IMG/VR virus record: IMGVR_UViG_3300047453_000229
Coordinates: 1-22,564 of that record
DNA length: 22,564 nt
Direction: 5' to 3' (one strand)
Source of the DNA: a virus
Each line of letters opens with the position of its first letter. Positions within the stretch are counted from its first letter, which is position 1. Below are positions 1-15,836 of this stretch, one piece after another. The notes beneath the pieces are model-generated. The model was not told the DNA's origin, did no database searches, and saw only the letters and a program-made list of their open reading frames with translations. Position numbers and translations under genes: made by a program.

Positions 1-308
1 AAGATTTGCGGAAGGCAGCAGAGGCAGAAGCAGCTCGTATTGAGCGTGAATTAGAAAACACTACTTTAAATAAATTTCTTAGAAATATTGAAAGTAGAAT
101 TTACGCTAATCTAAGTAAACAAATGGTGGACGCTATGTTTGCTGATTGTGGAGATACTTGCACTAATACAGGCTCAGCAGAGATCGAAGGCTCACAACTT
201 ACTTGGGTTAAAGATCCTACTACAGGCAGTATAACATTGACAATCGTTGGTGCGGACGGTACTACTACCGAAATCACTATACCAGGCGCAGGGGAGTTTA
301 ATTTCTAA
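1..308 (+). CDS. csgF: CsgF-like curli assembly protein, C-terminal part (5' truncated by window)
   Basis: The reading frame is open from the window edge to a TAA at 306-308, so only the C-terminal ~100 residues are visible and the true start lies upstream. In curli systems CsgF is the secreted factor that caps the CsgG pore and couples secretion to fibre nucleation at the cell surface. The visible part aligns by eye with the end of E. coli CsgF: a helical LxxFxxxIxSxI-like stretch (here LNKFLRNIESRI), then a beta-rich tail with the DPTTGSITLTIVGADG stretch and a terminal FNF where E. coli has TDF. The stop overlaps the csgG start in a TAATG, which implies translational coupling and strongly supports the assignment. 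The two cysteines in the middle (CGDTC) are not in E. coli CsgF. The upstream TTG at position 6 is unlikely to be the start. The identification is family-level, from remembered CsgF sequence rather than a database search. Confidence 0.78.
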   Translation, partial: DLRKAAEAEAARIERELENTTLNKFLRNIESRIYANLSKQMVDAMFADCGDTCTNTGSAEIEGSQLTWVKDPTTGSITLTIVGADGTTTEITIPGAGEFNF

Positions 309-1252
309 TGCGAATGATAAAGACGCTTTTACTATTTGGATTCAGTGTACTACTATTGCAGGGCTGTGCGACAAGCACTAGCTTGCAGATTCTAGAAGAC
401 ACAAAGGAATCACCAACAGTACAAGTTAGTCCGATTGAAGATAGGCTAGCGGCGGTTCCCGCTTTAGACGGACCAAAGATTACTATCGCTGTTTATGGTT
501 TCAGAGATGCAACAGGACAGCGTAAGCCGGCGGACAATATCGCCAACTTGTCGAGTGCAGTTACCCAAGGATCAGAGGTTTGGGTTATCAAAGCACTTCA
601 AGATGTAGGTAACGGCGCCTGGTTTGAAGTTGTAGAGCGTGTGGGTATGGATAATTTGATTAAAGAACGTCAACTTATTCGAAGTACACGGGAAGTTTAT
701 GAAAAACAACTTCCAAACGGTCCTACACCGTTAAAGCCTATGTTGTTTGCAGGGCTCATACTTGAAGGGGGAATTGTCGGGTATGATAGCAACACAGCAG
801 TAGGTGGTGCAGGAGCGAGATACCTAGGCGTAGGTATGCAGACTGAGTATCGAGTTGATACTGTGACTGTAGTAATGCGTTTAGTGAGCGTAAGCACAGG
901 GAAAGTGCTTATGAGTATAGCAACCGAGAAAACAATCGCGAGCTATAGGTCCGGAGCGGACATCTTCAAGTTTTTTGACTTGGGGACAAAACTTGTAGAA
1001 GCTGAAACCGGCTACAGTGTTAACGAACCAGTTAACTATGCGGTACGAGCAGCGATAGAACAGGGAGTAATTGAAATAGTTTCTGAAGGTGAAATTCGGA
1101 ATCTGTGGAAATTTAAAGACAAGACGTATACAGGCAAGTTGCCTGAAGTAAGACCATTGAAGTTAGAAGAAGCATTACTGAAGTGGCCCGATGCAAGATT
1201 AAATTGCAGTGCAGATGACTTATGTGTACCGATTGATAAAAACGAGGAATAA
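308..1252 (+). CDS. csgG: CsgG curli secretion channel, outer-membrane lipoprotein
   Basis: 314 residues. CsgG forms the nonameric outer-membrane pore that exports curli subunits (type VIII secretion). The N-terminus is a lipoprotein signal ending in the lipobox LQGC (Cys20). The family core is clear: ITIAVYGFRDATGQRK near residues 58-73, followed by WFEVVERVGMDNLIKERQ near residues 102-119, the most conserved CsgG stretch. The beta-strand region near residues 150-200 corresponds to the membrane hairpins. At 314 residues it is longer than E. coli CsgG (277); the extra ~40 residues form a C-terminal tail with a Cys pair (LNCSADDLC). The start overlaps the csgF stop. The gene is first in line before the curlin genes, as expected for a secretion operon. 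A phage-borne complete CsgG is unusual. I see no damage to the reading frame, so it is probably functional. Confidence 0.96.
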   Translation: MRMIKTLLLFGFSVLLLQGCATSTSLQILEDTKESPTVQVSPIEDRLAAVPALDGPKITIAVYGFRDATGQRKPADNIANLSSAVTQGSEVWVIKALQDVGNGAWFEVVERVGMDNLIKERQLIRSTREVYEKQLPNGPTPLKPMLFAGLILEGGIVGYDSNTAVGGAGARYLGVGMQTEYRVDTVTVVMRLVSVSTGKVLMSIATEKTIASYRSGADIFKFFDLGTKLVEAETGYSVNEPVNYAVRAAIEQGVIEIVSEGEIRNLWKFKDKTYTGKLPEVRPLKLEEALLKWPDARLNCSADDLCVPIDKNEE

Positions 1253-1268
1253 AATAAAGACGAAAGTC

Positions 1269-1273
1269 GAGGG
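1269..1273 (+). promoter_or_regulatory. Shine-Dalgarno GAGGG for curlin gene 1
   Basis: GAGGG lies 6 bases upstream of the ATG at 1280, within the 27-base gap after csgG. This is the only sizeable gap in the curli operon, so the major subunit gene has its own strong ribosome site rather than depending on stop-start coupling. Confidence 0.6.
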
Positions 1274-1279
1274 CACATT

Positions 1280-1999
1280 ATGAAAACATTTTTACGCATA
1301 TTACCTTTCTTGTTTATGGCTAACTTCGCTCTGGCTAATGATATCTATATTACCCAAGTAGGTGATAATTTAGACTTAGACCTAGTGCAAGATGGTACAG
1401 ACAACGAAATAGGTGATTCAACAACAGATTTTACAATCAAAGGCGACGATATGACGTTTAGCATTACACAAACGGGTAACACTAACACTATTGACGCAGT
1501 CATTAACGGAGCAGATTACACAGGTACTTGGGACTTCTTTGGGGACTCAAATGCTGTAACACTAAACTGTGATAGTTTAGGTTCAGCAGGATCAGGAAAC
1601 TGTGAAGAAGTAACACTAAACATTGATGGCGATGGTGATGATAACACATATACATTCAACATTGGTCAAACAAATGACGCTGGCGGAAGTACTATTGTTT
1701 TTGATGTAGATGGCGACAACAACGTTAATAATGTAACTGTAGATGGAATTGACAGTGTGATTACTGTAACTTCAGATAACTCAGCTTCACTAGCAACTAC
1801 AAGTGCTAACAGTGACGAGGGTAATGCTATTACTATTAACTCAAGCGGTGGTGCAAGTTTAGACGGACACGTTATTACGCTAAACATCACAGGCGGCGGT
1901 AGTACATATGATATTACACAAAGCGGTGTTGATGGTAGTACAATTGAAGCAACATTCACAGGCGACAGTCAAGACGTAGACATAACTCAGAGCGACTAA
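1280..1999 (+). CDS. Curlin-repeat secreted protein 1 (CsgA/CsgB-like amyloid subunit)
   Basis: 239 residues with a Sec signal peptide (MKTFLRILPF...NFALA, predicted cut before Asn20). The mature protein is acidic, rich in Asp, Asn, Thr, Ser and Gly, and contains no long hydrophobic segment. Curlin-type strand-turn units with Ile-x-Gln and Gly-Asp/Asn turns occur at the N-terminus (IYITQVGDN, then LVQDGTDNEI), near residue 60 (FSITQTGNTN) and at the C-terminus (YDITQSG ... VDITQSD). The middle keeps the alternating beta pattern but has lost most Gln residues. Curlin subunits are exported through CsgG and polymerise into extracellular beta-solenoid amyloid. It sits one base before the FecR-domain gene and begins its mature part almost exactly like the second curlin protein. 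Whether it is the major subunit or a nucleator cannot be decided from sequence. Confidence 0.85.
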   Translation: MKTFLRILPFLFMANFALANDIYITQVGDNLDLDLVQDGTDNEIGDSTTDFTIKGDDMTFSITQTGNTNTIDAVINGADYTGTWDFFGDSNAVTLNCDSLGSAGSGNCEEVTLNIDGDGDDNTYTFNIGQTNDAGGSTIVFDVDGDNNVNNVTVDGIDSVITVTSDNSASLATTSANSDEGNAITINSSGGASLDGHVITLNITGGGSTYDITQSGVDGSTIEATFTGDSQDVDITQSD

Positions 2000-2000
2000 G

Positions 2001-3128
2001 ATGAAATTCTTAGTTCTTACATTTACCATTATCCTGACTACTTTCTCATATGCTAATGCACAAATTGGCACAGTGACTGAGCTCAAAGGATCTGGCGAAA
2101 TTGTACGTGAGAGCAACATAGTTGGCAACAGCCAAGGCACTCCTTTAGAGTCAATGGATACTGCAAGAACCAAACGTGGTAAAATGCGTTTAGACTTTAT
2201 TGACGACACTAGAGTAGATGTTATTGACAACAGTATACTAGTCATAGACGACTTTGTATATGATCCATCTAGTGGAACAGGTAAACTAGATATGAGAGCC
2301 GCACTAGGTACAGTGCGTTATGCAAGTGGCCAAATTGCTAAAAACTCAAGACAAAATGTTAGAGTGCGTACACCAAGCGCAACTATCTCTGTACGTGGTA
2401 CAGACTTTATTATGGTTGTAGATGAAATTGGCGGCTCAATGGTAACACTATTACCTAGTTGTGATGCCGCAGGGTTTTGTGTAACAGGTGAAATTAAAGT
2501 AGAAACAGACGAAGGCTTTGTTGTAATGAATCAAGCATTTCAAGCAACACAAGTTTCACACAGTGGACAACTTCCTAGTAAGCCTGTAATTCTAAGTATC
2601 GGTGAAGAACAAATAACAAATTTACTCATATTAAGAAAAAGGACTGTGATAGACGAAGAAGAAGATCAAATACGTAAACGTACACGTAAGATGTTTGAGT
2701 TTCTCGATATTGATGCATTAGAGTTTGATGATTTAGATGAAGATGCATTAGCAGAAAGCATTAAAGATATATGGGCAACAGAGTTAGATCACGGAGCAGA
2801 CTATTACTTAGGCGAACTGTTAGTTGATATGATAGATCAATTAAATGCAGCACTATCGGCATTATTTAGAGATGAGCTCAAAGCACAAAACAAACAGTTT
2901 TTTGAACAACAGCAAGGCGGCTACGATGACAAAACTCGTATTACATTACAAATAAGAGATCCTAGTTGGATAGTAGAAAGAACGAGTACAGACGTAAATA
3001 ACTATATGCGTTTAAACTTAAATCAAGAATATGGATATAATATAAACATTGAACAAAGCGACGAAGCAGTATACGAATATAGATTGGGTGCAGGTAATAA
3101 CTCAATAGACGTATCGCAGAGACAGTAA
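2001..3128 (+). CDS. Secreted FecR-domain protein with curlin-like C-terminal tail
   Basis: 375 residues. Signal peptide MKFLVLTFTI...SYANA with a cut predicted before Gln21. Residues ~50-155 match the FecR fold: GKMRLDFIDDTRVDV, GTVRYASGQI, then the signature VRTPSATISVRGTDF. In bacteria FecR domains act as periplasmic sensors or as parts of surface structures. Residues ~205-325 form a charged, mostly helical region rich in Glu/Asp. The last ~30 residues (NINIEQSDEAVYEYRLGAGN, then SIDVSQRQ) follow the curlin strand-turn-strand pattern with Gln at the expected spacing and end like the two flanking curlin proteins. I infer that the protein may dock to or nucleate the fibre. It lies between the two curlin genes with a 1-base gap upstream and a TAATG overlap downstream. 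There is no transmembrane segment, so a classical anti-sigma FecR role is unlikely. Confidence 0.85.
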   Translation: MKFLVLTFTIILTTFSYANAQIGTVTELKGSGEIVRESNIVGNSQGTPLESMDTARTKRGKMRLDFIDDTRVDVIDNSILVIDDFVYDPSSGTGKLDMRAALGTVRYASGQIAKNSRQNVRVRTPSATISVRGTDFIMVVDEIGGSMVTLLPSCDAAGFCVTGEIKVETDEGFVVMNQAFQATQVSHSGQLPSKPVILSIGEEQITNLLILRKRTVIDEEEDQIRKRTRKMFEFLDIDALEFDDLDEDALAESIKDIWATELDHGADYYLGELLVDMIDQLNAALSALFRDELKAQNKQFFEQQQGGYDDKTRITLQIRDPSWIVERTSTDVNNYMRLNLNQEYGYNINIEQSDEAVYEYRLGAGNNSIDVSQRQ

Positions 3129-4324
3129 TGAAACTAACAGGAACACATTTAGGAATAGCAGTTATACTAACTTACTTTGTTAGCCAATCCTGTATGGCCA
3201 ATGAAATTTATGTAAACCAAGTTGGTGACAATACTAACTTGACTATCACACAAGAAGGTGATGATAATACAATTACTGGTCTGTCAGGCGGCACTAGCAA
3301 AGCAACAATTAGTGGCAATAATACTAGCTCAACATACGACCAAGACGGTGATCGTAATGCTATAAAAGTTTACAAGTCTGCAGGCAACGGTATTACCGAA
3401 GTAACTCAAACAGGCAACGACAACGAAGCATTTTTAGACTGTCACGGTAATAATTGTGTGCTTGACGTTACACAAACAGGAAACGACAACTATGTTTCAG
3501 CTGAAGTTGGCAATGGTGGCGACTATGATCAAAGTATTACAATTACACAAAATGGTGATGATAACTTAGCTGTAGTTGAAGCAAACGGAGATGACAATAC
3601 TATTGTTATTGACCAGGACGGCGACAATCATATGGTGTATGGCTACGGCAACACACCACTTACCGGCGATAGAAATACATTAACACTAACACAAGACGGA
3701 ACACAATACGAACAAGCAGAAATTTCTGTTATAGGAAATGACAACACAGTAGATGGTTATCAAGGTGGCAGTGGCGAAAGCAACTTTGGTAGACTAGTAT
3801 TAATGGGCGATGATAACAACGTAAAAATGTGGCAGGGCAAGCAGTTAGATGGTACTACTGATTCAGTAGAAGGCGGAGACCACAACGCATATGTTGCTAT
3901 TGCGGGAGACAATAACGATTTTCATTCAGCACAAACTGATCAAGCCGCAACCTGTTGTTGGGCAGCAAACGATTTGTTCGCTGGTATAATTGGTGACGAC
4001 AATGAAGTAACCTTATCACAACGTAAAAATGGTGCTCACACAATGTATGTTAACATAGACGGAGACGACAATAATGTTGACGTAGCGCAAAATGGAAACC
4101 AAGGCTCAACATACCTTGATCTTGACATAGAAGGCGACTACAATCTAGTTGACGTAAATCAACACGGTGGAGGCGCACACAGTGCAACTATCGACTTGTC
4201 AAGTACATATGGCCCAGCATATAACTTTAGTTTAGAACAACACAGCAATTCAGCAAAATCATACTCAATGACAAGTATATGCACTAACCCCGGCGGTTGT
4301 AGCATTAGCGTAACTCAGTACTAA
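3128..4324 (+). CDS. Curlin-repeat secreted protein 2 (large CsgA-like amyloid subunit)
   Basis: 398 residues with a signal peptide (cut predicted after SCMA, before Asn25). The mature part is a long array of curlin-type units: beta strands with I/V-x-x-Q alternating with turns of the type G-D/N-D-N. I count about sixteen such turns (for example QEGDDNT, QTGNDNE, QNGDDNL, QDGDNH, MGDDNN, EGDYNL), against five repeats in E. coli CsgA. The final residues, SISVTQY, resemble the end of a curlin repeat. Cysteines occur in close pairs (CHGNNC, CCW, CTNPGGC), which could form disulfides after export; E. coli CsgA has none. The N-terminus after the signal (NEIYVNQVGDN) is nearly the same as in curlin protein 1. 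Exported probably by the CsgG encoded upstream. It ends the operon, and its TAA stop is part of a TAAATACT motif. Confidence 0.9.
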   Translation: MKLTGTHLGIAVILTYFVSQSCMANEIYVNQVGDNTNLTITQEGDDNTITGLSGGTSKATISGNNTSSTYDQDGDRNAIKVYKSAGNGITEVTQTGNDNEAFLDCHGNNCVLDVTQTGNDNYVSAEVGNGGDYDQSITITQNGDDNLAVVEANGDDNTIVIDQDGDNHMVYGYGNTPLTGDRNTLTLTQDGTQYEQAEISVIGNDNTVDGYQGGSGESNFGRLVLMGDDNNVKMWQGKQLDGTTDSVEGGDHNAYVAIAGDNNDFHSAQTDQAATCCWAANDLFAGIIGDDNEVTLSQRKNGAHTMYVNIDGDDNNVDVAQNGNQGSTYLDLDIEGDYNLVDVNQHGGGAHSATIDLSSTYGPAYNFSLEQHSNSAKSYSMTSICTNPGGCSISVTQY

Positions 4325-4330
4325 ATACTA
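4322..4330 (+). promoter_or_regulatory. T4-late-promoter-like motif TAAATACTA overlapping the curlin stop codon
   Basis: TAAATACTA begins with the TAA stop of the curlin gene. The 8-mer ending at 4327 (ACTAAATA) matches 6 of 8 positions of the T4 late -10 TATAAATA. The same TAAATACT core recurs at four other gene boundaries in this window. If used, transcription would begin near 4333 and run into the genes at 4367-7419. Function is inferred. Confidence 0.45.
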
Positions 4331-4353
4331 CTGACAGAGGGCAAGACTGTCAG
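4331..4353 (+). promoter_or_regulatory. RNA hairpin between curli operon and downstream genes
   Basis: A perfect 7-bp inverted repeat, CTGACAG (4331-4337) and CTGTCAG (4347-4353), encloses a 9-base loop. It is not followed by a T-run, so it is not a standard intrinsic terminator. It may be a processing or mRNA-stability element at the end of the curli transcript or in the leader of the next gene. Confidence 0.5.
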
Positions 4354-4366
4354 AAAGTAGGGCTAG

Positions 4367-4849
4367 ATGATCGATCCATTCACCGCCGTAGCCGCGGCAA
4401 CAACAGCATTCAACACAGTTAAAAAGTTTGTACACGCTGGCCAAGAATTTGAAAACTGTATGGGACAAATGGGCAAGTGGTACACTAGTGTATCTGACTT
4501 CCGCAAAGGTCAGCAGATGCAAAAGAATCCACCAATATTTAGAAAACTATTATCCGCAGGCTCAGTAGAAGAAGAAGCACTCAATCTCCTTATCCACGAA
4601 AAGAAAATTATGGAGATGGAAAAAGAATTACAAAATATGTTGAATATGCGTTTTGGTTTTGGCACTTGGGATGAGCTGAAAGAAATGCAACGTAAGATAC
4701 GTGCTAAACGTGAACGTGAAGTGTATAGACAAGCAGAAGCAAAGCAGGCATTAATAAACGGTGTTGCTATTACTTTATTACTAGGAGCGTTAGTTAGTAT
4801 GCTTGGAGGATTGTTTTATTTCATACTAAAGGCCAAGGGAATGATCTAG
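4367..4849 (+). CDS. Unknown protein with C-terminal membrane segment
   Basis: 160 residues, not recognised. The N-terminal third starts with an Ala/Thr-rich helix (residues 1-20). Residues ~65-127 are highly charged and likely helical or coiled coil (KKIMEMEKELQ, KEMQRKIRAKREREVYRQ). A single hydrophobic segment at ~131-154 is followed by a short basic tail (KAKGMI). The layout is that of a tail-anchored membrane protein with a long cytosolic helical part. It is the first gene after the curli operon and a hairpin, and overlaps the next gene by one base. A virion-associated or lysis-related role is possible but unproven. The start ATG follows AGGG (4359-4362) at a workable distance. Confidence 0.7.
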   Translation: MIDPFTAVAAATTAFNTVKKFVHAGQEFENCMGQMGKWYTSVSDFRKGQQMQKNPPIFRKLLSAGSVEEEALNLLIHEKKIMEMEKELQNMLNMRFGFGTWDELKEMQRKIRAKREREVYRQAEAKQALINGVAITLLLGALVSMLGGLFYFILKAKGMI

Positions 4850-5067
4850 TGATACACGCATTTATGCTAGTAGTGTTAATAGCAGACGCACAACAACCGT
4901 CGCCTATGTATTTTAGAAGTATAGATGTTTGTCAATACTATGCAAAACGTATACCAAGACAGTACGGAAACTACGGATCAAAGTATCTAGTACCCAAGGA
5001 ACATAGAATAACTGCTTATTGTAAGCCTGTAAAAGTGCAAGACGGACCTTACATATACGATCATTAA
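4849..5067 (+). CDS. Small unknown protein, GTG start, possible export signal
   Basis: 72 residues starting with GTG that shares its first base with the upstream stop (TAGTG). AGGG lies about nine bases before the start. The first ~14 residues (MIHAFMLVVLIADA) form a short hydrophobic stretch that could be a signal peptide. The rest has two cysteines about 30 residues apart (SIDVCQYYAKR and AYCKP), several Tyr and basic residues, compatible with a small disulfide-bonded exported protein. No family recognised. It ends with a double stop TAATAA that leads straight into a TAAATACTT motif. Confidence 0.6.
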   Translation: MIHAFMLVVLIADAQQPSPMYFRSIDVCQYYAKRIPRQYGNYGSKYLVPKEHRITAYCKPVKVQDGPYIYDH

Positions 5068-5076
5068 TAAATACTT
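5066..5076 (+). promoter_or_regulatory. T4-late-promoter-like motif AATAAATACTT
   Basis: AATAAATA (5066-5073) matches 7 of 8 positions of the T4 late -10 element and continues with CTT as in the extended T4 consensus. It overlaps the stop codons of the previous gene. Only four bases separate it from the ATG at 5078, so a start 6 bases after the element would fall within that codon. Confidence 0.5.
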
Positions 5077-5077
5077 T

Positions 5078-5383
5078 ATGAAATGGATACTAGAATTATT
5101 TTTAAAGGATTATGTAGACGAACTTGTGGACAAACGGTTTCAGGAGAAAATGTATGAGCAATACCTTTACACCCGCAAACAAGAGCTTAGTCAAAGAATT
5201 GAAAAAGTCAGAAAAAATCTCGATACACAAGCACAGGGGATTACGCAGAACACAAACGGAACAGTACTGCCCAGTAGTAACATTCGACGGAGTAACAGCA
5301 AATCCAACATACAAGTCACGCCCGATACGCCACTAAGTGATGCAGAGAAAATGAAACAAAAATTAATGGGAATTAAAAAATGA
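5078..5383 (+). CDS. Small charged protein of unknown function
   Basis: 101 residues. The N-terminal half is an amphipathic, probably coiled-coil helix (DYVDELVDKRFQEKMYEQ, TRKQELSQRIEKVRKNL). The second half is low-complexity, rich in Ser, Asn, Thr and Pro, and ends in a basic helix (EKMKQKLMGIKK). No family recognised. There is no clear Shine-Dalgarno before the ATG; the start is only four bases from a late-promoter-like AATAAATA, so the mRNA may be leaderless or the gene may be read from an upstream transcript. It overlaps the cyclase gene by four bases (ATGA), suggesting coupled expression and perhaps a joint function. Confidence 0.6.
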   Translation: MKWILELFLKDYVDELVDKRFQEKMYEQYLYTRKQELSQRIEKVRKNLDTQAQGITQNTNGTVLPSSNIRRSNSKSNIQVTPDTPLSDAEKMKQKLMGIKK

Positions 5384-7419
5384 AACGACTACTAAGCCCT
5401 TGGTGGGCATTGATAACACTAGGGATATTAGTATACGCATTTGCAAATCCAAGTAACTTCTTACAAAGTATCAAACTAAACTATTTTGATCAACTTATAG
5501 TTAACCAAGAACCAACACAAAATAATATCTTTGTAGCAGAAATTGATGATGCTGCATTAGACAAGTACGGACAGTATCCTTTTCCACGTAACATATACTC
5601 GGACATTATTATTGAATTATTTAACAAAGGCGCAGGTCTTGTTGTATGGAATATAATGATGCCTGAAGTAGATAGACTAGGAGGCGACGAAGATCTTGCA
5701 CTTACACTAAGTCAATTTCCTGTTGTCCTAGCAAGTCGACCCAGCGACAAAACTAAGAACGAGCCAATCAATCCTGGGGCAGCAATCATTCAACCTCAGT
5801 TCCTAGATCAGTTATTGCCATACGGCGGCATAATTGCTAACATTCCAGAACTTGAGGACAATAGTGTTGGTGCTGGCATCGTTTCAACTGAGCCGGAGAT
5901 AGATGGGGTGGTGAGAAGAATGCCTACTATCGCCGTCGTAGACGGTACACTATATCCTAGTCTAGCACTAGAGACACTACGTGTTATCGCAGGCGACCCT
6001 AACTTCCAAATCAAACTAAATCAGTTTGGTGTTGAGAAAATGCGTATACCAAAGTTTGGCGTTATACCTACTGACAGCGAAGGTCGTGTATGGATAGACT
6101 GGAGTCAACGTTCACATCGTATGAGTGTTACTGAAGTACCTAAAGATTTACAAGGCGCAATAGTAATAGTAGATGTAACTGCCGCAGGTATTGCTAATCC
6201 TGTACCAACAGCAACAGGCGCACAGTATGCAGGTACTACACAAGCGGCTGTACTAGGTACAATGTTTAATGGTACAAACATACAACGTCCTGATTGGGCA
6301 CCGACAGCAGAGCTTATAGCACTCGTAGTAGGCGGGCTATTGCTTATACTTTTAAGTCGCTGGATGCTTGTAGGACTTGCTACAACAGTTTTACTAATAG
6401 GCGGAGTTGTGCCCTACAGTATATACACATACGCAACAGAGAAGCTGTTATTAGACGTTACAGCGCCTGTTATAGTGTTTATTGTAATCGCATTGCAAGT
6501 ATATGGTATCAAATTTGTACGAGAATTCTTAGAGAAGCAAGCAATAAAGAAACAGTTCGCAGGCTATGCATCACCTACTGTAGTGCGCTTATTACAGGAA
6601 AATCCAGCACTTATCAAAGACGGTATGAAGAAAGAAGTTTCGATTTGTTTCTCAGACCTAAGAGGCTTTACACCACTAGGTGAATCGTTTGGTGATGATG
6701 TAAAAGGCCTAACTAAAATTATGAATGGCTATATGGATGCTATTACACAGCCTGTACTAGATGCAGACGGAATGATTATTAAGTATATTGGCGATGCAAG
6801 TATGCACGTACACAACGCACCTATCAATGATCCGCAACACCCTAAGTCAGCAGTACAATGTGGATTAGATATGTTAAAAGCAGTGGAGAAGTTTAATGAC
6901 AAAATTACAGCAGAAGGCAGGCCGCCTGTTGGTATGGGTGCCGGCATCAATACTGGCCTTGGGTATCTTGGAGAAATGGGAAGTACACAACGACACAGTT
7001 ATGATGTCCTCGGAGACGCAGTTAGTACAGCCGCTCGTATTGAAAGCAAATGTAAAGAATACGGATGTGTATTACTTGTTGGAGATGCGACATATCAACA
7101 AACTAAAGACGACTTCTTCTACTTAAAAATAGACGACTTAGCAGTTAAAGGTAAAACAGTAGGCATTGGTATTTGGACAGTACTAGACGGTATGAATAGT
7201 AAGTCAGATATAAAAAGTAAACAAATGCACGAACAAATGTATGAAGCGTATCTTGCACAAAAGTTTGACGAAGCAATATACATATGTGAAAGATTAGAAA
7301 GACATTTTAACGGCAAAATGGCAGGATACTACAAAATGTGGATAGAACGCTGTGAGTATCAAAAGACTCAAGACTTACCTACAGATTGGAACGGCGTGTT
7401 TATTGCAACTACGAAGTAG
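5380..7419 (+). CDS. CHASE2-domain class III adenylate/guanylate cyclase, membrane-bound
   Basis: 679 residues. Order: N-terminal membrane helix (~8-23); an extracytoplasmic CHASE2 sensor domain (~30-300, with VAEIDDAALDKYGQYPFPR and GGIIANIPELEDNSVGAG); three membrane helices (~307-378); then a class III nucleotide cyclase domain (~415-600). Catalytic features by analogy with mammalian cyclase: metal-binding Asp426 (FSDLRGFT) and Asp472 (KYIGDA), adenine-selecting Lys468 and Asp542 (SYDVLGD), transition-state Arg553 (AARIE). The usual Asn of that last motif is Ser549 here, which may lower activity. The Lys/Asp pair argues for ATP rather than GTP, giving cAMP. This is the architecture of bacterial environmental-sensor cyclases and is very unusual in a phage. 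It overlaps the preceding small gene (ATGA) and lies one short block after the curli operon. A role in modifying host cAMP signalling is inferred. Confidence 0.95.
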   Translation: MKRLLSPWWALITLGILVYAFANPSNFLQSIKLNYFDQLIVNQEPTQNNIFVAEIDDAALDKYGQYPFPRNIYSDIIIELFNKGAGLVVWNIMMPEVDRLGGDEDLALTLSQFPVVLASRPSDKTKNEPINPGAAIIQPQFLDQLLPYGGIIANIPELEDNSVGAGIVSTEPEIDGVVRRMPTIAVVDGTLYPSLALETLRVIAGDPNFQIKLNQFGVEKMRIPKFGVIPTDSEGRVWIDWSQRSHRMSVTEVPKDLQGAIVIVDVTAAGIANPVPTATGAQYAGTTQAAVLGTMFNGTNIQRPDWAPTAELIALVVGGLLLILLSRWMLVGLATTVLLIGGVVPYSIYTYATEKLLLDVTAPVIVFIVIALQVYGIKFVREFLEKQAIKKQFAGYASPTVVRLLQENPALIKDGMKKEVSICFSDLRGFTPLGESFGDDVKGLTKIMNGYMDAITQPVLDADGMIIKYIGDASMHVHNAPINDPQHPKSAVQCGLDMLKAVEKFNDKITAEGRPPVGMGAGINTGLGYLGEMGSTQRHSYDVLGDAVSTAARIESKCKEYGCVLLVGDATYQQTKDDFFYLKIDDLAVKGKTVGIGIWTVLDGMNSKSDIKSKQMHEQMYEAYLAQKFDEAIYICERLERHFNGKMAGYYKMWIERCEYQKTQDLPTDWNGVFIATTK

Positions 7420-7624
7420 ATTTGTGTTTTAATAACAAAGCATTGACTTCGTCTGTTTTAACTAACCAACCACTTTCATTAACAATAAAAACATCACCTG
7501 GCTTGTATAGCCAATGGTCTCTAGGTGAACCATCACGGGCAACTCCCATTACTTCGCCGGGGTAGTCTCCTTTGACTGTAAAGTTCTCGCCTGCTTGATC
7601 AATATTATAATCAACCCACATCAT
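7409..7624 (-). CDS. Small unknown protein on the minus strand
   Basis: 71 residues. It is supported by a strong Shine-Dalgarno (GGAGG on the minus strand at 7638-7634) nine bases before the start, and by its position one base after the upstream minus-strand gene. The protein is short and beta-rich in appearance (ENFTVKGDYPGEVMGVARDG, then a KPGDVFIVNESGWLVKTDEV segment), which might be a small barrel, but no family is recognised. There is a second in-frame ATG directly after the first (MM). The end overlaps the end of the + strand cyclase by 11 bases in a convergent arrangement. It is one of only two minus-strand genes in the window. Confidence 0.7.
   Translation of the reverse strand: MMWVDYNIDQAGENFTVKGDYPGEVMGVARDGSPRDHWLYKPGDVFIVNESGWLVKTDEVNALLLKHKSTS
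7411..7452. terminator. Possible bidirectional hairpin at the convergent gene junction
   Basis: ACGAAGT (7411-7417) pairs with ACTTCGT (7446-7452), and inside it TTTGT (7421-7425) pairs with ACAAA (7435-7439). The structure covers the ends of the + cyclase gene and the - gene at 7409. The runs of T or A around it are short, so termination is only a plausible role. Confidence 0.35.
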
Positions 7625-7625
7625 T

Positions 7626-7898
7626 TTATAAAACCTCCACTAGTTTTGCTCTATTATATTTAAGTACGAATAATGTTGCTTGTTTAGAATTTGGTATGTC
7701 TACATAAATGTCACACCGGCAATAAGTGTCGCCCGGCATAGTTTGACTTTCACTACGTAGGAACACCCAGTCCCATCCGTTTGACTCTACAGTTTTGAAA
7801 ATATCTTCGCCTACTTCTCTACGCACCCAAATTATTTCCATCTGTGAATTTTTATGTGTCCACTTGTATTCGCAGTTTCCTAAGTAATATCGTATCAT
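7626..7898 (-). CDS. Small unknown protein on the minus strand, start uncertain
   Basis: 90 residues from the ATG at 7898, or 71 from the in-frame ATG at 7841 (MEIIWVRREVGEDIF). The sequence alternates hydrophobic and charged residues (WDWVFLRSESQ, CRCDIYVDIPNSKQATLFVL) and looks like a small alpha/beta protein; no family recognised. An exact TATAAATA on the minus strand (7911-7904) lies just upstream. With T4 spacing, transcription would start at or next to base 7898, making the longer form leaderless. Neither candidate start has a good Shine-Dalgarno. The gene is followed after one base by the 7624-7409 gene, so the two form a minus-strand pair. Confidence 0.6.
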   Translation of the reverse strand: MIRYYLGNCEYKWTHKNSQMEIIWVRREVGEDIFKTVESNGWDWVFLRSESQTMPGDTYCRCDIYVDIPNSKQATLFVLKYNRAKLVEVL

Positions 7899-7903
7899 AC
7901 TTC

Positions 7904-7911
7904 TATTTATA
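7904..7911 (-). promoter_or_regulatory. Exact T4-type late promoter element TATAAATA, minus strand
   Basis: The + strand reads TATTTATA, so the minus strand carries an exact 8 of 8 match to the T4 late -10 element. It points at the minus-strand gene pair. The expected start, about 6 bases downstream, coincides with the ATG at 7898. It forms a divergent pair with the element at 7953. Confidence 0.6.
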
Positions 7912-7952
7912 TTATATACGTAGTTATTGATATTACAAATAAAGAAGTTTTA

Positions 7953-7963
7953 TATAAATACTT
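7953..7963 (+). promoter_or_regulatory. Exact T4-type late promoter TATAAATACTT
   Basis: TATAAATA (7953-7960) followed by CTT matches the extended T4 late consensus. It lies 47 bases upstream of the ATG at 8008 in a gene-free divergent region and probably drives the two holin-like genes. A start near 7966 would give a leader of about 40 bases with a hairpin and a strong ribosome site. Confidence 0.7.
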
Positions 7964-7971
7964 TAGTAAGC

Positions 7972-7989
7972 AGAGCGTGAGGGCGTTCT
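7972..7989 (+). promoter_or_regulatory. Leader hairpin upstream of the holin-like gene pair
   Basis: AGAGCG (7972-7977) and CGTTCT (7984-7989) form a 6-bp stem with one G-T pair and the loop TGAGGG. It sits between the late promoter and the GGAGGG ribosome site (7994-7999). A stability or translation-control role is possible. Confidence 0.35.
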
Positions 7990-8007
7990 ACCTGGAGGGA
8001 ATAATGT

Positions 8008-8286
8008 ATGGACTTTCTAACATTAGTTGGTGAAGTTGGTTTTCCTATAGCAGGCGCTTTAGCAGCTGGTGGATTTGTTTTTTTAACACTACGCTTTATT
8101 TTAGCCGGCGTCACTGATAGTGTAATGACACTAAAAGGTATTATAGGATCACTAGATAATAGAGTACAAACAATGAACAACGATCTTGTTAAGATCGATG
8201 CTCTAATGAGTCACGCCCTTGAAGTTAAACCAAACGTAGATAGAATTGCAGCCAATGAAGGCAAAGACGATGCAAGGAGAGACTAG
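8008..8286 (+). CDS. Holin-like small membrane protein, copy 1
   Basis: 92 residues: a short N-terminal part, one hydrophobic segment (~10-35, starting at VGFPIAGALAAGGFVFLTL), then an amphipathic helix with a coiled-coil look (GSLDNRVQTMNNDLVKIDAL) and a charged tail. The pattern of GFP-[IV] at the membrane entry plus a cytosolic coiled coil resembles the BhlA/UviB class of small holin-like proteins, but the similarity is by pattern only. GGAGGG lies 8 bases before the ATG. An upstream out-of-frame ATG (8004) is ignored. It has the same layout as the next gene and lies behind a strong late-type promoter, consistent with late expression in lysis or virion assembly. Confidence 0.7.
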   Translation: MDFLTLVGEVGFPIAGALAAGGFVFLTLRFILAGVTDSVMTLKGIIGSLDNRVQTMNNDLVKIDALMSHALEVKPNVDRIAANEGKDDARRD

Positions 8287-8631
8287 TTGGAAGATATAGT
8301 TATAGAACAAGGAACTACTATTGGTTCAATGATCAGTGACTATGGTTTCCCTATTATTGCTGCAATGGGTATGGGGTATTTTATATTCTTCATATGGCGT
8401 TGGGTAACTGAAGTTATTGATCCTGTCATTGGCGAAACAATGGGTACACTTATTAAACTTGTTGATCGTGTGCGTATGCTTGACAACGATATGATTCGTT
8501 TGAATACTAAACTTAGTATGGTACTAGAACACAAAGCTAAACTTGATAAAGAACGCAGAGCTGAACTAGAAGAAATAATCAACAAATACACAGACAAACA
8601 TAACGATCCTTTTGATTCAACCGGAAAATAA
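8287..8631 (+). CDS. Holin-like small membrane protein, copy 2 (TTG start)
   Basis: 114 residues with a TTG start directly after the stop of copy 1 (TAGTTG). GGAG (8276-8279) in the end of copy 1 can serve as its ribosome site. Layout as in copy 1: SDYGFPIIAAMGMGYFIFF membrane segment (~18-41), then a cytosolic helix with the shared pattern LVDRVRMLDNDMIRLNTKL (copy 1: SLDNRVQTMNNDLVKIDAL), and a longer charged coiled-coil tail. The two are evidently paralogues from a tandem duplication. Possible roles are holin/antiholin or virion membrane proteins; I cannot decide between them. Confidence 0.7.
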   Translation: MEDIVIEQGTTIGSMISDYGFPIIAAMGMGYFIFFIWRWVTEVIDPVIGETMGTLIKLVDRVRMLDNDMIRLNTKLSMVLEHKAKLDKERRAELEEIINKYTDKHNDPFDSTGK

Positions 8632-10734: not shown

Positions 10735-10763
10735 TTGACAATCTACTACTCTGATTGTATACT
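10735..10763 (+). promoter_or_regulatory. Sigma70-type promoter for the SprT-like gene
   Basis: TTGACA (10735-10740), 17-base spacer, TATACT (10758-10763). The next ribosome site AAGGG (10782-10786) precedes the ATG at 10794, so the start codon of that gene must be 10794 and not an upstream TTG at 10755 inside the promoter. Confidence 0.8.
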
Positions 10764-10793
10764 ATATGTATAGTAAGCAATAAGGGCACAACT

Positions 10794-11228
10794 ATGTTTA
10801 TAACTGTTACAGGCGGATCAAAACTACAAAAACAATACGCAGAAAGTATGGTAGAGTTTTGTGTTAAGACTCTTATGCCTCGTATGCGGTCGCTTGATGT
10901 TAGTGTAAAACTATGCAAGCCTAAAGGTGCCTTGGGTTACTGTTTAGAAGGCGACACCAAGAGAGAGTTTGAGCTCGAAATTGATAAAACACAACCTATG
11001 CGTAAGTTGCTAGAAACAATAGCACACGAGATGGTACACGTTAAGCAATTTGCTAGACGTGAAATGCACCCTGAGACAGATGAATGGTATGGCAAAACTT
11101 ACAATCCTAAGAAAGTAAGTTACTGGGACCTACCGTGGGAAATAGAAGCACACGGACGTGAAGTAGGATTATTCATCCGTTGGGCAGAGGCAAATGATTT
11201 AGGCACAGAAGAATGGACACAAGAATGA
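10794..11228 (+). CDS. SprT-like zinc metallopeptidase
   Basis: 144 residues from the ATG at 10794; an open frame continues upstream to a TTG at 10755, but that lies within the -10 region of the promoter. The zinc motif HEMVH (78-82) is followed by an acidic/His segment PWEIEAHGRE (Glu118, His120) that can supply the third ligand, as in SprT-like and related phage peptidases. In cells SprT/Spartan proteins cut proteins crosslinked to DNA; the phage version may act in DNA repair or be a general protease. It starts its own transcript and overlaps the next gene in an ATGA. Confidence 0.8.
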   Translation: MFITVTGGSKLQKQYAESMVEFCVKTLMPRMRSLDVSVKLCKPKGALGYCLEGDTKREFELEIDKTQPMRKLLETIAHEMVHVKQFARREMHPETDEWYGKTYNPKKVSYWDLPWEIEAHGREVGLFIRWAEANDLGTEEWTQE

Positions 11229-11683
11229 ATAAAGAAGATTTTTATCACGATTTTTTATTAATACGTAAAATGAAGGCTCCGACTAACAAGCGTTATCGTA
11301 TGCTAGGAGAGTTGTTTGCTGTTAATCCTAATGCTTGGCAAGTGGTAGGTATTACTGAAGATGCATTAGCAGTATTTGCCAAGCACGACTTTAAACGTGT
11401 AAGTCGGATGGGTATCAATCGCAGTCATCTAGTAGATCGTGTAAAAACATATACCACTATGCTTGAAGGTCCTCTTATGGAGTGCGACGAATGGTGGAAC
11501 TTTTATGTAGAAAACGACAAAACTATTCTAGCAACATCAACAGAAAATATGAGCAAAGGTGAATGGAGCAAAGTGTATGCTGTAGATCCAAAATTAGGCC
11601 TTTTTAAAAGTCAAGGATTTGCTTGGCAACATAAAGATCTAGAGATAAATTTTTTAAAAGAAACACGGGTGGACACACAATGA
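11225..11683 (+). CDS. Unknown protein
   Basis: 152 residues from the ATG at 11225, which shares ATGA with the upstream stop; ATG 11213 in the same frame would add four residues. It is a compact mixed protein with a basic N-terminal half (IRKMKAPTNKRYRMLGELF, KHDFKRVSRMGINRSH) and an aromatic-rich C-terminal half (CDEWWNFYVENDKTIL, KGEWSKVYAVDPKLG). No family recognised. The first residues MNKE are the same as in the next gene. It lies between the SprT-like gene and a larger unknown gene and overlaps both in ATGA junctions, so all three are probably made together. Confidence 0.65.
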   Translation: MNKEDFYHDFLLIRKMKAPTNKRYRMLGELFAVNPNAWQVVGITEDALAVFAKHDFKRVSRMGINRSHLVDRVKTYTTMLEGPLMECDEWWNFYVENDKTILATSTENMSKGEWSKVYAVDPKLGLFKSQGFAWQHKDLEINFLKETRVDTQ

Positions 11684-12873
11684 ATAAAGAGCGTGAATTT
11701 ATTAATTATTTTAAAACTAAAGTTGATGCCCGGTATCAACGCAGTCAAGATAAGGACAAGCAAAATCATCACGTGACTATTCGTGACGTAAGCAGTGAAG
11801 AAGTGTTTACAGCATTGGAAGCTGAAGGCTATACTTTGTCCGAAAGCAGTCGTACACATAGTAGTGCATACGTTGGCAAAAAGATTGTGTATAATAACAA
11901 CGATATCTATGTTGTTGTGCGTGACAAAAATTCTAGCGGTGTTCATTATATGAAACGCAAAGACGTTACTCCAGATCGCATTGGACTAGGTGGACGTACT
12001 TTTGATAACACAGAACATATGCGAGCTGTAATACACAAAGGCCTAACGCAGTGTACTACAATGGAAAATACTATTGCTCTAATGAGTATTCTTGATGCTG
12101 TTGACCACAACAGCGAATTTAAGAACACACACGTATTAGCCGCAGACAAGAGTCGTATCACAAGTGACTTTGGTGAAGTAGTAAGTGCGTATGTACGAGT
12201 AAAGAACGGTAAAGAAGTTTTCTTTCCTAAAGAAAGTAACTATCCTGGTGTAGACTTTTTTGCAGGAGGCGTAGGAGTAAGTGCTAAAGGTGACAAAGGT
12301 AGTAGTCGTCTAAGTACTATTGATTATGCAGAGCAAATTAATGAGCTTGGTGACAGTAATGTAGAAAGTGTGTTCAAACATCTTAGTCAGCGTCAAATAT
12401 TTGATATGATAAATGTAGCCGCAGATGCTTGCCCACAACTTAAATATTGGAAAAGCAAGCTAGGGAAAATTACACAAGATGCTATGGCAGCATATATTCA
12501 AGACAACACATATGACACATACTTAGATGATGTGCGAGCGTGTCAAGATGGTGCAGGTATTGCTATTCCTAAAAAAGAAGAACAGTGCCGAGTGTATTGG
12601 AGCAAAGGCGACATTAATCCATTATTGTTTACGTTTTGTACACTAATAGATCGTTACTACAGTGTACAAAACGCTGTCGCAATCAGTGAAACAGTTGCTG
12701 AATTGTTTAAAGAAAGTGATATTGAGTTTGAATACTTTGACTACAATATTGAAGACAGCAGTATTAGTATTAACATTCTTCCTATTACACAGTACACACA
12801 GTGGAAAATTAACTACTGGGGCAATGCCGCGAATGCGTTAAATAATTGGCCAGCAGTTGAAGGAATTGGTTGA
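11680..12873 (+). CDS. Unknown 397-residue protein
   Basis: Not recognised. Soluble, without signal or membrane segments. A stretch near residues 190-215 (GVDFFAGGVGVSAKGDKGSS) has the look of a strand-turn with a basic-Gly motif such as occurs at nuclease or nucleotide-binding sites, but no complete motif is present. The C-terminal third is acidic and rich in Asn, Ile and Tyr (FEYFDYNIEDSSISINILP). The gene overlaps its upstream neighbour in an ATGA. Its TGA stop (12871-12873) is part of the TTGACA of the next promoter. It is the last gene of the unit beginning at 10794. Confidence 0.65.
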   Translation: MNKEREFINYFKTKVDARYQRSQDKDKQNHHVTIRDVSSEEVFTALEAEGYTLSESSRTHSSAYVGKKIVYNNNDIYVVVRDKNSSGVHYMKRKDVTPDRIGLGGRTFDNTEHMRAVIHKGLTQCTTMENTIALMSILDAVDHNSEFKNTHVLAADKSRITSDFGEVVSAYVRVKNGKEVFFPKESNYPGVDFFAGGVGVSAKGDKGSSRLSTIDYAEQINELGDSNVESVFKHLSQRQIFDMINVAADACPQLKYWKSKLGKITQDAMAAYIQDNTYDTYLDDVRACQDGAGIAIPKKEEQCRVYWSKGDINPLLFTFCTLIDRYYSVQNAVAISETVAELFKESDIEFEYFDYNIEDSSISINILPITQYTQWKINYWGNAANALNNWPAVEGIG

Positions 12874-15025: not shown

Positions 15026-15219
15026 TGAATACAAAATTTGACGGACCATTTGTAAGTGCGTTCGAAACAGACCCAGAAGGGGTTGTTAAACAAGAACTAG
15101 TTACATATCGAGTCAAAGACGGTATGTTGCGTAAAGAAACAACAACACGTAAATTTAATTCGGATCAAACTGACTGGCACGATTCACAATCAGTTGATCC
15201 TATGATGGAGATCAAATAA
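15025..15219 (+). CDS. Small unknown protein upstream of clpP
   Basis: 64 residues with a good ribosome site (GGGAGG at 15011-15016). It is polar, with two likely strands ([20 protein letters not shown]) and an acidic, Asp/Ser-rich C-terminus. Not recognised. The stop shares a base with the clpP start (TAATG), so the two are probably translated together. Confidence 0.6.
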
Positions 15220-15836
15220 TGCCTTTAGTACCTATGGTAGTTGAGCAAGAAGCTCGCGGCGAACGTTCATACGACATTTACAGTCGTTTGATGAAAGACA
15301 GAATCATTATGCTTAATGGTCCTGTAGAAGATAATATGGCTAATTTAATTGTAGCACAACTATTGTTCTTAGAGTCAGATAATCCTGACAAAACAATTAA
15401 CTTGTACATCAACTCGCCCGGCGGTGCTGTAACAGCAGGATTAGCTATCTATGACACTATGCAGTATATTAAAAGTGATGTAAGCACTATTGTAATGGGG
15501 CAAGCCTGTTCAATGGGTTCATTCCTAGCAATGGCTGGTACTCCAGGCAAGCGTATTGTATTGCCAGAAGCACGTACAATGATTCACAGAGTGTCAAGCG
15601 GTACACGAGGTACTAGTGGTTCAGTACACGTACAAGAACTTGAAATGGAAGATGCTATTCGTTCGTTTGAAGAGTCAAAGAAAGTAAACAAGCGTCTTAC
15701 TGAACTTTATGTGCGTCATAACACAGCAGGCAAAACATACGAAGAACTGTTTGAAACAATGAAGTTTGATACATTCCTTACAGCACAAGAAGCAGTTGAC
15801 TACGGTCTTGCTGATAAAGTTGTGGACAAACGATAA
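15219..15836 (+). CDS. clpP: ClpP-type serine protease subunit
   Basis: 205 residues. ClpP forms a two-ring barrel that degrades proteins fed by ClpA/ClpX-type unfoldases. The catalytic triad is present: Ser98 (GQACSMGS), His123 (MIHR) and Asp184 (KFDTFLT), aligned with E. coli Ser111, His136 and Asp185 of the precursor. The INSPGG oxyanion motif is at 64-69. It begins at the position of the mature E. coli enzyme (PLVPMV after Met), so it has no propeptide to remove. Between His and Asp there are about 12 more residues than in E. coli, within the handle region ([20 protein letters not shown]). No Clp ATPase is in the window, so it would use the host unfoldase. A phage may use it to redirect host proteolysis or to process virion proteins. 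Confidence 0.96.

Follow-up and report, generated by a model that had tools for sequence, protein, structure and literature searches.

Curli genes have been reported repeatedly in phages of marine bacteria. The genes csgF and csgG were described in pelagimyophages, for which a role in 'sibling capture' was proposed (Zaragoza-Solas 2020, PMC7029224). The gene order csgF-csgG-csgA/B-fecR-csgA/B-cyclase, with FecR and an adenylate cyclase, was described in pelagimyophages and pelagipodophages (Wittmers 2022, PMC9599517), and one ocean survey recorded phage curli genes at each of its 65 stations (PMC9599517). A role in lysis was proposed for the curli operon of phage Melnitz (PMC9004378). The present analysis concerns a module of this kind in a stretch of 22,564 nt (the window), positions 1 to 22,564 of IMG/VR virus record IMGVR_UViG_3300047453_000229. 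The window module is a further member of the published curli module of T4-like phages that infect SAR11 and OM43 bacteria. An earlier note on this DNA had proposed a phage-borne curli operon, and this is confirmed by the viral nature of the contig and by the presence of the module in independent contigs and in the cultured phages HTVC008M and Melnitz. The note's mention of curli-type genes in pelagimyophages was correct (PMC7029224); its suggestion that the FecR gene and the cyclase linkage might be new was not, as both are described in the same order in PMC9599517. Beyond the published papers, the analysis adds the constancy of two small membrane proteins (o92 and o114), a frequent late promoter motif, a reinterpretation of the FecR protein, a bacterial pairing of FecR with CHASE2, and a Ser substitution in the cyclase. 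The module is best explained as an exporter of curli-like fibres that would act late in infection and be monitored by the FecR protein and the cyclase, a functional reading that is modestly favoured.

The window is a genuine marine virus contig and encodes six tRNAs together with genes of phage families, such as an ATP-dependent ligase. An independent contig, L002, shows a 99.6% DNA match to the window across 3822 nt and repeats the junctions of the module. Two other independent contigs, L016 and L018, carry homologues of the curli, cyclase, peroxiredoxin and 2OG-oxygenase genes ordered as in the window. Because these contigs repeat its junctions, the window is not chimeric; the chimeric or chromosomal origin against which the earlier note had cautioned was checked and is not the case, the junctions recurring in independent viral contigs. 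CsgG homologues 49-53% identical to that of the window were found by tblastn in HTVC008M and four Melnitz isolates, whose records show the window's gene order. Of the longest module-bearing contigs, two have the gp23 capsid gene, which is missing from most module contigs, probably since these are fragments.

The five genes from csgF to curlin-2 are all encoded on the + strand, with 1-base overlaps or gaps of 1-27 nt, so that the ordered and tightly packed set of csgF, csgG, two curlin-repeat genes and a FecR-domain gene proposed in the earlier note is supported by Pfam and by the coordinates (Table 1). CsgF, CsgG, the FecR protein and curlin-2 score above the Pfam cut-offs in the window, and the search of CsgG against PF03783 that had been suggested as a check was positive. 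The full-length csgF, seen at 9540-10001 of L002, encodes 153 aa with a signal peptide (PF10614, 1.6e-11). The window CsgG aligns to solved E. coli CsgG chains in the PDB (E=6e-52), and a lipobox-like motif is present in 55 of 60 phage CsgG proteins. Curlin-1 is supported via its homologues: the window copy matches PF07012 at 0.007, below the cut-off, and 23 of 29 homologues match the family (best 6e-10). Its AlphaFold model is all-beta (mean predicted local distance difference test score, pLDDT, 82), and a fold search with curlin-1 gave no significant match. Curlin-2 matches the NCBIfam CsgA and CsgB models below the cut-off (1.5e-12 and 5e-9). Sec signal peptides of the curlins were found by inspection. 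Both curlins share the mature N-terminus N[DE]IY[IV]xQxG (58 of 58 for curlin-1, 33 of 46 for curlin-2), which the FecR protein does not have. This motif sits at the position of the CsgG-targeting segment of E. coli curlins.

The secretion genes had been thought complete; csgG, csgF and the curlins are present, but the CsgE gate (PF10627) was not found in any of 19 long records, two of them complete phage genomes, by a search that did detect its positive control. The operon had likewise been placed at 1-4324, where the genes do lie, but it reaches further, to the CHASE2-cyclase gene and, by synteny, the small genes at 8008-8631. Changes in the CsgG constriction (Phe56 replaced by Leu in 60 of 60, Tyr51 by small residues) were considered as a phage-specific trait and rejected, being partly common to alphaproteobacterial CsgG.

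CsgG-like genes were also seen in other records labelled as phage. Brevundimonas phage Kabachok and four relatives, all jumbo phages, have a CsgG/HfaB-like gene (L092, 7854-8744) with no CsgF or curlin match nearby, which may be a phage copy of holdfast-anchor genes. The 1499-bp record OR851715.1 ('Salmonella phage S.Kent 1-2-1') holds a csgG gene 42% identical to that of the window and is probably a piece of host DNA under a wrong phage label.

Synteny was evaluated in 29 unique CsgG loci that had 4 kb or more of upstream and 7.5 kb or more of downstream sequence; these were picked by CsgG similarity, and remoter modules may differ. All eight genes (csgF, csgG, curlin-1, fecR, curlin-2, cyclase, o92, o114) are present in 29/29 of these well-flanked loci. 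In 16 loci o92 and o114 precede csgF and the following genes on one strand, and in the other 13 the pair lies past the cyclase on the opposite strand. The window represents a third arrangement, in which the pair is past the cyclase yet on the same strand; relative to L016/L018 it is inverted. Among 50,697 phage records o92 was found in only six, all of which also have the FecR gene. Its median pairwise identity of 71%, versus 68% for CsgG, makes it the best conserved of the module's proteins. In the published module a gene labelled 'HK' precedes csgF (PMC9599517). To judge from position, size and paralogy, o92 and o114 are probably this 'HK'; it could not be matched directly, as MW574966, the accession given in PMC9599517, showed no curli gene across the 45 kb inspected. 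No match to HisKA or HATPase in Pfam or NCBIfam was obtained for o92/o114 (about 92-127 aa), and the published 'histidine kinase' label is probably wrong. Of 24 members, 4 weakly resembled a PHROG holin family (best 1e-4) and 8 weakly resembled YvrJ (best E 0.094).

The expression of the module is probably late, as far as can be read from its promoter motifs. Late promoters were sought in pelagimyophages and reported not found (PMC7029224), and the TATAAAT motif was used in Melnitz (PMC9004378). The window has two TATAAAT copies, versus 8.6 expected by chance, and both belong to the divergent pair before o92. Where the module starts with o92, the motif occurs in the 150 nt ahead of that gene in 21 of 27 loci; where it starts with csgF, this is so in 12 of 39. 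About 0.028 copies are expected per locus. Within HTVC008M and Melnitz it is found ahead of 11 of 39 structural genes, compared with 2 of 40 genes for replication or metabolism (p=0.006). The HTVC008M copy lies 13 nt ahead of csgF, and the motif likewise precedes a baseplate gene of that phage; L002 has one copy 26 nt ahead of csgF.

The FecR-domain protein differs from the iron regulator as which it has been published. In its AF2 model a signal helix (residues 2-18) leads directly into the beta-stranded FecR domain, which a helical linker connects to a beta region at the C-terminus. PF04773 was detected in all 40 members examined, none of which showed a further convincing Pfam domain, and the top match in a fold search was the cell-surface signalling domain of PupR (6ovk, E=0.002). 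A FecIR-type iron regulator was ruled out, as neither Pfam searches of the 40 members nor the model place a cytoplasmic anti-sigma domain and a membrane anchor ahead of the FecR domain; the published label is probably wrong. The C-terminal strands recur at intervals of ~21 residues and, like curlin repeats, end in N-x5-Q. An ending of the form hydrophobic-x-hydrophobic-x-Q, no more than 3 residues from the stop, was found in 53 of 55 FecR proteins, 58 of 58 curlin-1 and 35 of 46 curlin-2 sequences, compared with 2 of 750 background open reading frames (ORFs). The same ending is frequent in sampled bacterial curlins and was not seen in bacterial FecR proteins, whose matches cover the FecR domain only. 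These features suggest a curlin-like, phage-specific tail. Many alphaproteobacterial FecR domains (L140-L168) lie within very large ORFs of up to ~6900 aa, suggesting that FecR domains are often part of surface-protein systems.

The cyclase retains the metal-binding Asp426 and Asp472, the adenine-type Lys468 and Asp542, and the transition-state Arg553. The transition-state Asn is replaced by Ser in all 39 phage cyclases examined (Ser549 in the window) and is retained in 25 of 25 bacterial homologues. Mammalian cyclases that lose this Asn have a lower turnover. Among the matches listed for Alphaproteobacteria (385 genomes), 28 of 120 FecR matches lie no more than 6 kb from CHASE2, with ~0.6 expected; the 120 are the listed FecR matches in genomes with a listed CHASE2 match. 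As this adjacency is far above expectation, the FecR-CHASE2 neighbourhood is judged old and bacterial. The BiofilmReg operon of Burkholderia pairs a periplasmic FecR-domain protein with a CHASE2 kinase (PMC5192318), and CHASE2 cyclases of Sinorhizobium receive their signal via an outer-membrane barrel (PMC13001267). A bacterial ancestor of the whole module was not found: none of five sampled chromosomal alphaproteobacterial csgF/csgG loci has FecR or CHASE2-cyclase within ~9 kb, in agreement with PMC9599517.

According to the favoured reading, late in infection the curlins would be exported via CsgG and CsgF and assemble as amyloid on the infected cell. The FecR protein would remain in the periplasm, where its curlin-like tail would touch the fibre or its subunits and its FecR domain would serve in envelope signalling. 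The CHASE2 domain would sense that state, and the cyclase would convert it into a cyclic nucleotide. The phage would probably benefit in that cells and virions are aggregated or retained near release, as in the published 'sibling capture'. In a more specific form, which we regard as tentative and rather unlikely, the eight genes would constitute a self-monitoring amyloid exporter unlike bacterial curli, in which the FecR tail reports export to the Ser-substituted CHASE2 cyclase and o92/o114 replace CsgE or couple export to lysis.

Several observations weigh against fibre export with monitoring. Cultures of OM43 infected with Melnitz showed no clumping (PMC9004378, 2022), and no amyloid, secretion or signalling assay was found in the literature for any phage curli module. 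With CsgE absent, gating must differ from that of E. coli. The FecR fusion of the earlier note stands insofar as the tail is phage-specific and looks like a curlin repeat, but Pfam detects no curlin in the tail of any of the 40 members, and hidden Markov model (HMM) and profile tests of the tail against curlin were weakly positive, slightly above controls. The Ser in place of the transition-state Asn in all examined phage cyclases leaves cyclase activity unproven.

Control of lysis is a serious rival to fibre export, and one that we consider unlikely. CsgG would provide an outer-membrane pore and o92/o114 holin-like pores that time or aid lysis or egress, which extends to o92/o114 the hypothesis argued in print for Melnitz (PMC9004378). 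This agrees with the late-type promoter motif, with the obligate linkage of o92/o114 to the module (29/29), and with their short length, single membrane segment and weak similarity to the holin PHROG and YvrJ. However, it leaves two conserved exported curlins, a secreted FecR protein and a cyclase unexplained; CsgG resides in the outer membrane, whereas holins work in the inner membrane; and at roughly half of the loci o92/o114 lie far from csgF, on the other strand. A surface coat of early amyloid that blocks the adsorption of competing phages is quite improbable: the same list of parts would serve, and the idea has been put forward (PMC9599517), but the late-type motif before the module points to a late product, when exclusion would be less useful, so that early exclusion of rival phages is the less likely role. 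Very improbable is an uptake pore, in which ungated CsgG admits larger nutrients or cofactors to the periplasm and FecR takes part in the control of iron uptake (PMC7029224 and PMC9599517); the lack of CsgE speaks for it, but the FecR protein carries a signal peptide without any recognisable anti-sigma part, neither FecI nor a TonB receptor was seen among the window genes, and the curlins would be superfluous. That the contig is chimeric or a bacterial chromosome can practically be dismissed: the module has close matches at three loci in bacterial metagenome-assembled genomes (MAGs), but these look like binned phage contigs (four different copies in one MAG, and a Pirellulales copy on a 6.9-kb contig), and its recurrence in independent viral contigs and in the complete genomes of cultured phages already refutes this origin.

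The phage curli contigs inside bacterial MAGs are L085, L086, L104 and L107 (Rhodobacteraceae Water_Bin34) and L084 (Pirellulales MAG). They are likely binning contamination and could mislead surveys of bacterial curli. A search of genome contigs with one protein as query returned only MAG-binned phage copies.

A phage curli trait could make some of the most abundant cells of the ocean stick together during infection. The question has been narrowed in that late expression is probable, two published labels are probably wrong, and FecR-CHASE2 is an older bacterial partnership; HTVC008M and Melnitz are in culture and available for tests.

The coordinates of the features are summarized in Table 1. 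The 72-aa ORF again adjoins the 160-aa gene in relatives. Elsewhere in the window, a putative metallopeptidase-like ORF (weak DUF6782) is located at 10755-11228, a 397-aa ORF with no family match at 11680-12873, and ClpP at 15219-15836; a riboswitch search of the window found none. Upstream of csgF, L002 encodes in a row (2836-8066) IMP dehydrogenase, a GroES-like ORF, GroEL, Hsp20, ClpS, heme oxygenase and a ferredoxin-dependent bilin reductase, which together with ClpP form a chaperone, protease and bilin set unusually large for a phage.

Table 1. Curli module and adjacent features, in window coordinates.
Feature	Position	Strand	Remarks
csgF	1..308 (ORF 3-308)	+	5' end cut by window edge; PF10614 E=6e-7
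csgG	308..1252	+	outer-membrane lipoprotein pore, lipobox LQGC; PF03783 E=6e-49
curlin-1	1280..1999	+	Sec signal; mature N-terminus NDIYITQVG; C-terminus DITQSD
secreted FecR-domain protein	2001..3128	+	PF04773 3e-7; helical linker; curlin-like C-terminal strands at ~residues 307-373
curlin-2	3128..4324	+	seven curlin repeats; PF07012 4e-21, above cut-off
160-aa protein with C-terminal membrane segment	4367..4849	+	phrog_32327; in 7/29 well-flanked loci
two small ORFs (72 and 101 aa)	4849..5383	+	no function assigned; from ORF list
CHASE2-domain class III nucleotide cyclase	5380..7419	+	PF05226 5e-31; PF00211 3e-16
TATAAAT, T4-type late promoter motif ahead of o92/o114	7953..7959	+	second, divergent copy at 7905-7911 (-)
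o92	8008..8286	+	92 aa; one membrane segment and helical tail; phrog_18771
o114	8287..8631	+	paralogue of o92 with the same architecture; phrog_18771, as o92, in 24/24 members

The type VIII secretion system (T8SS) cluster of pelagimyophages and pelagipodophages (PMC7029224, PMC9599517, HTVC008M) resembles the window module in gene order, in its marine phage carriers and in the lack of csgE. The window differs in having three extra small ORFs between curlin-2 and the cyclase, and in placing o92/o114 downstream of the cyclase, whereas in the cultured phages the pair is upstream of csgF. Its CsgG represents a phage lineage separate from that of HTVC008M and Melnitz: in a CsgG tree the window phage falls into a phage clade apart from these and from sampled alphaproteobacterial CsgG, with long branches that make the finer placement unsure. 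The Melnitz operon has all eight genes, an o92 80% identical to that of the window, and a late-type motif before o92; csgA and csgB were judged missing in the Melnitz paper (PMC9004378), whereas its record MZ577097.1 annotates two curlin-repeat proteins and a FecR protein at 52015-54809. With enterobacterial csgBA-csgDEFG the phage module shares CsgG, CsgF and curlin repeats; it differs by the lack of CsgE (19 records), a gate that is not essential in enterobacteria, and by the addition of FecR, the CHASE2-cyclase and the small membrane pair. Proteobacterial FecR+CHASE2 pairs, such as Burkholderia BiofilmReg (PMC5192318), likewise have a secreted FecR-domain protein beside an inner-membrane CHASE2 sensor. 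Unlike these, in which the matches are limited to the FecR domain, the phage FecR protein has an apparently curlin-like tail of its own, and the output domain is a cyclase in the phage and a kinase in BiofilmReg.

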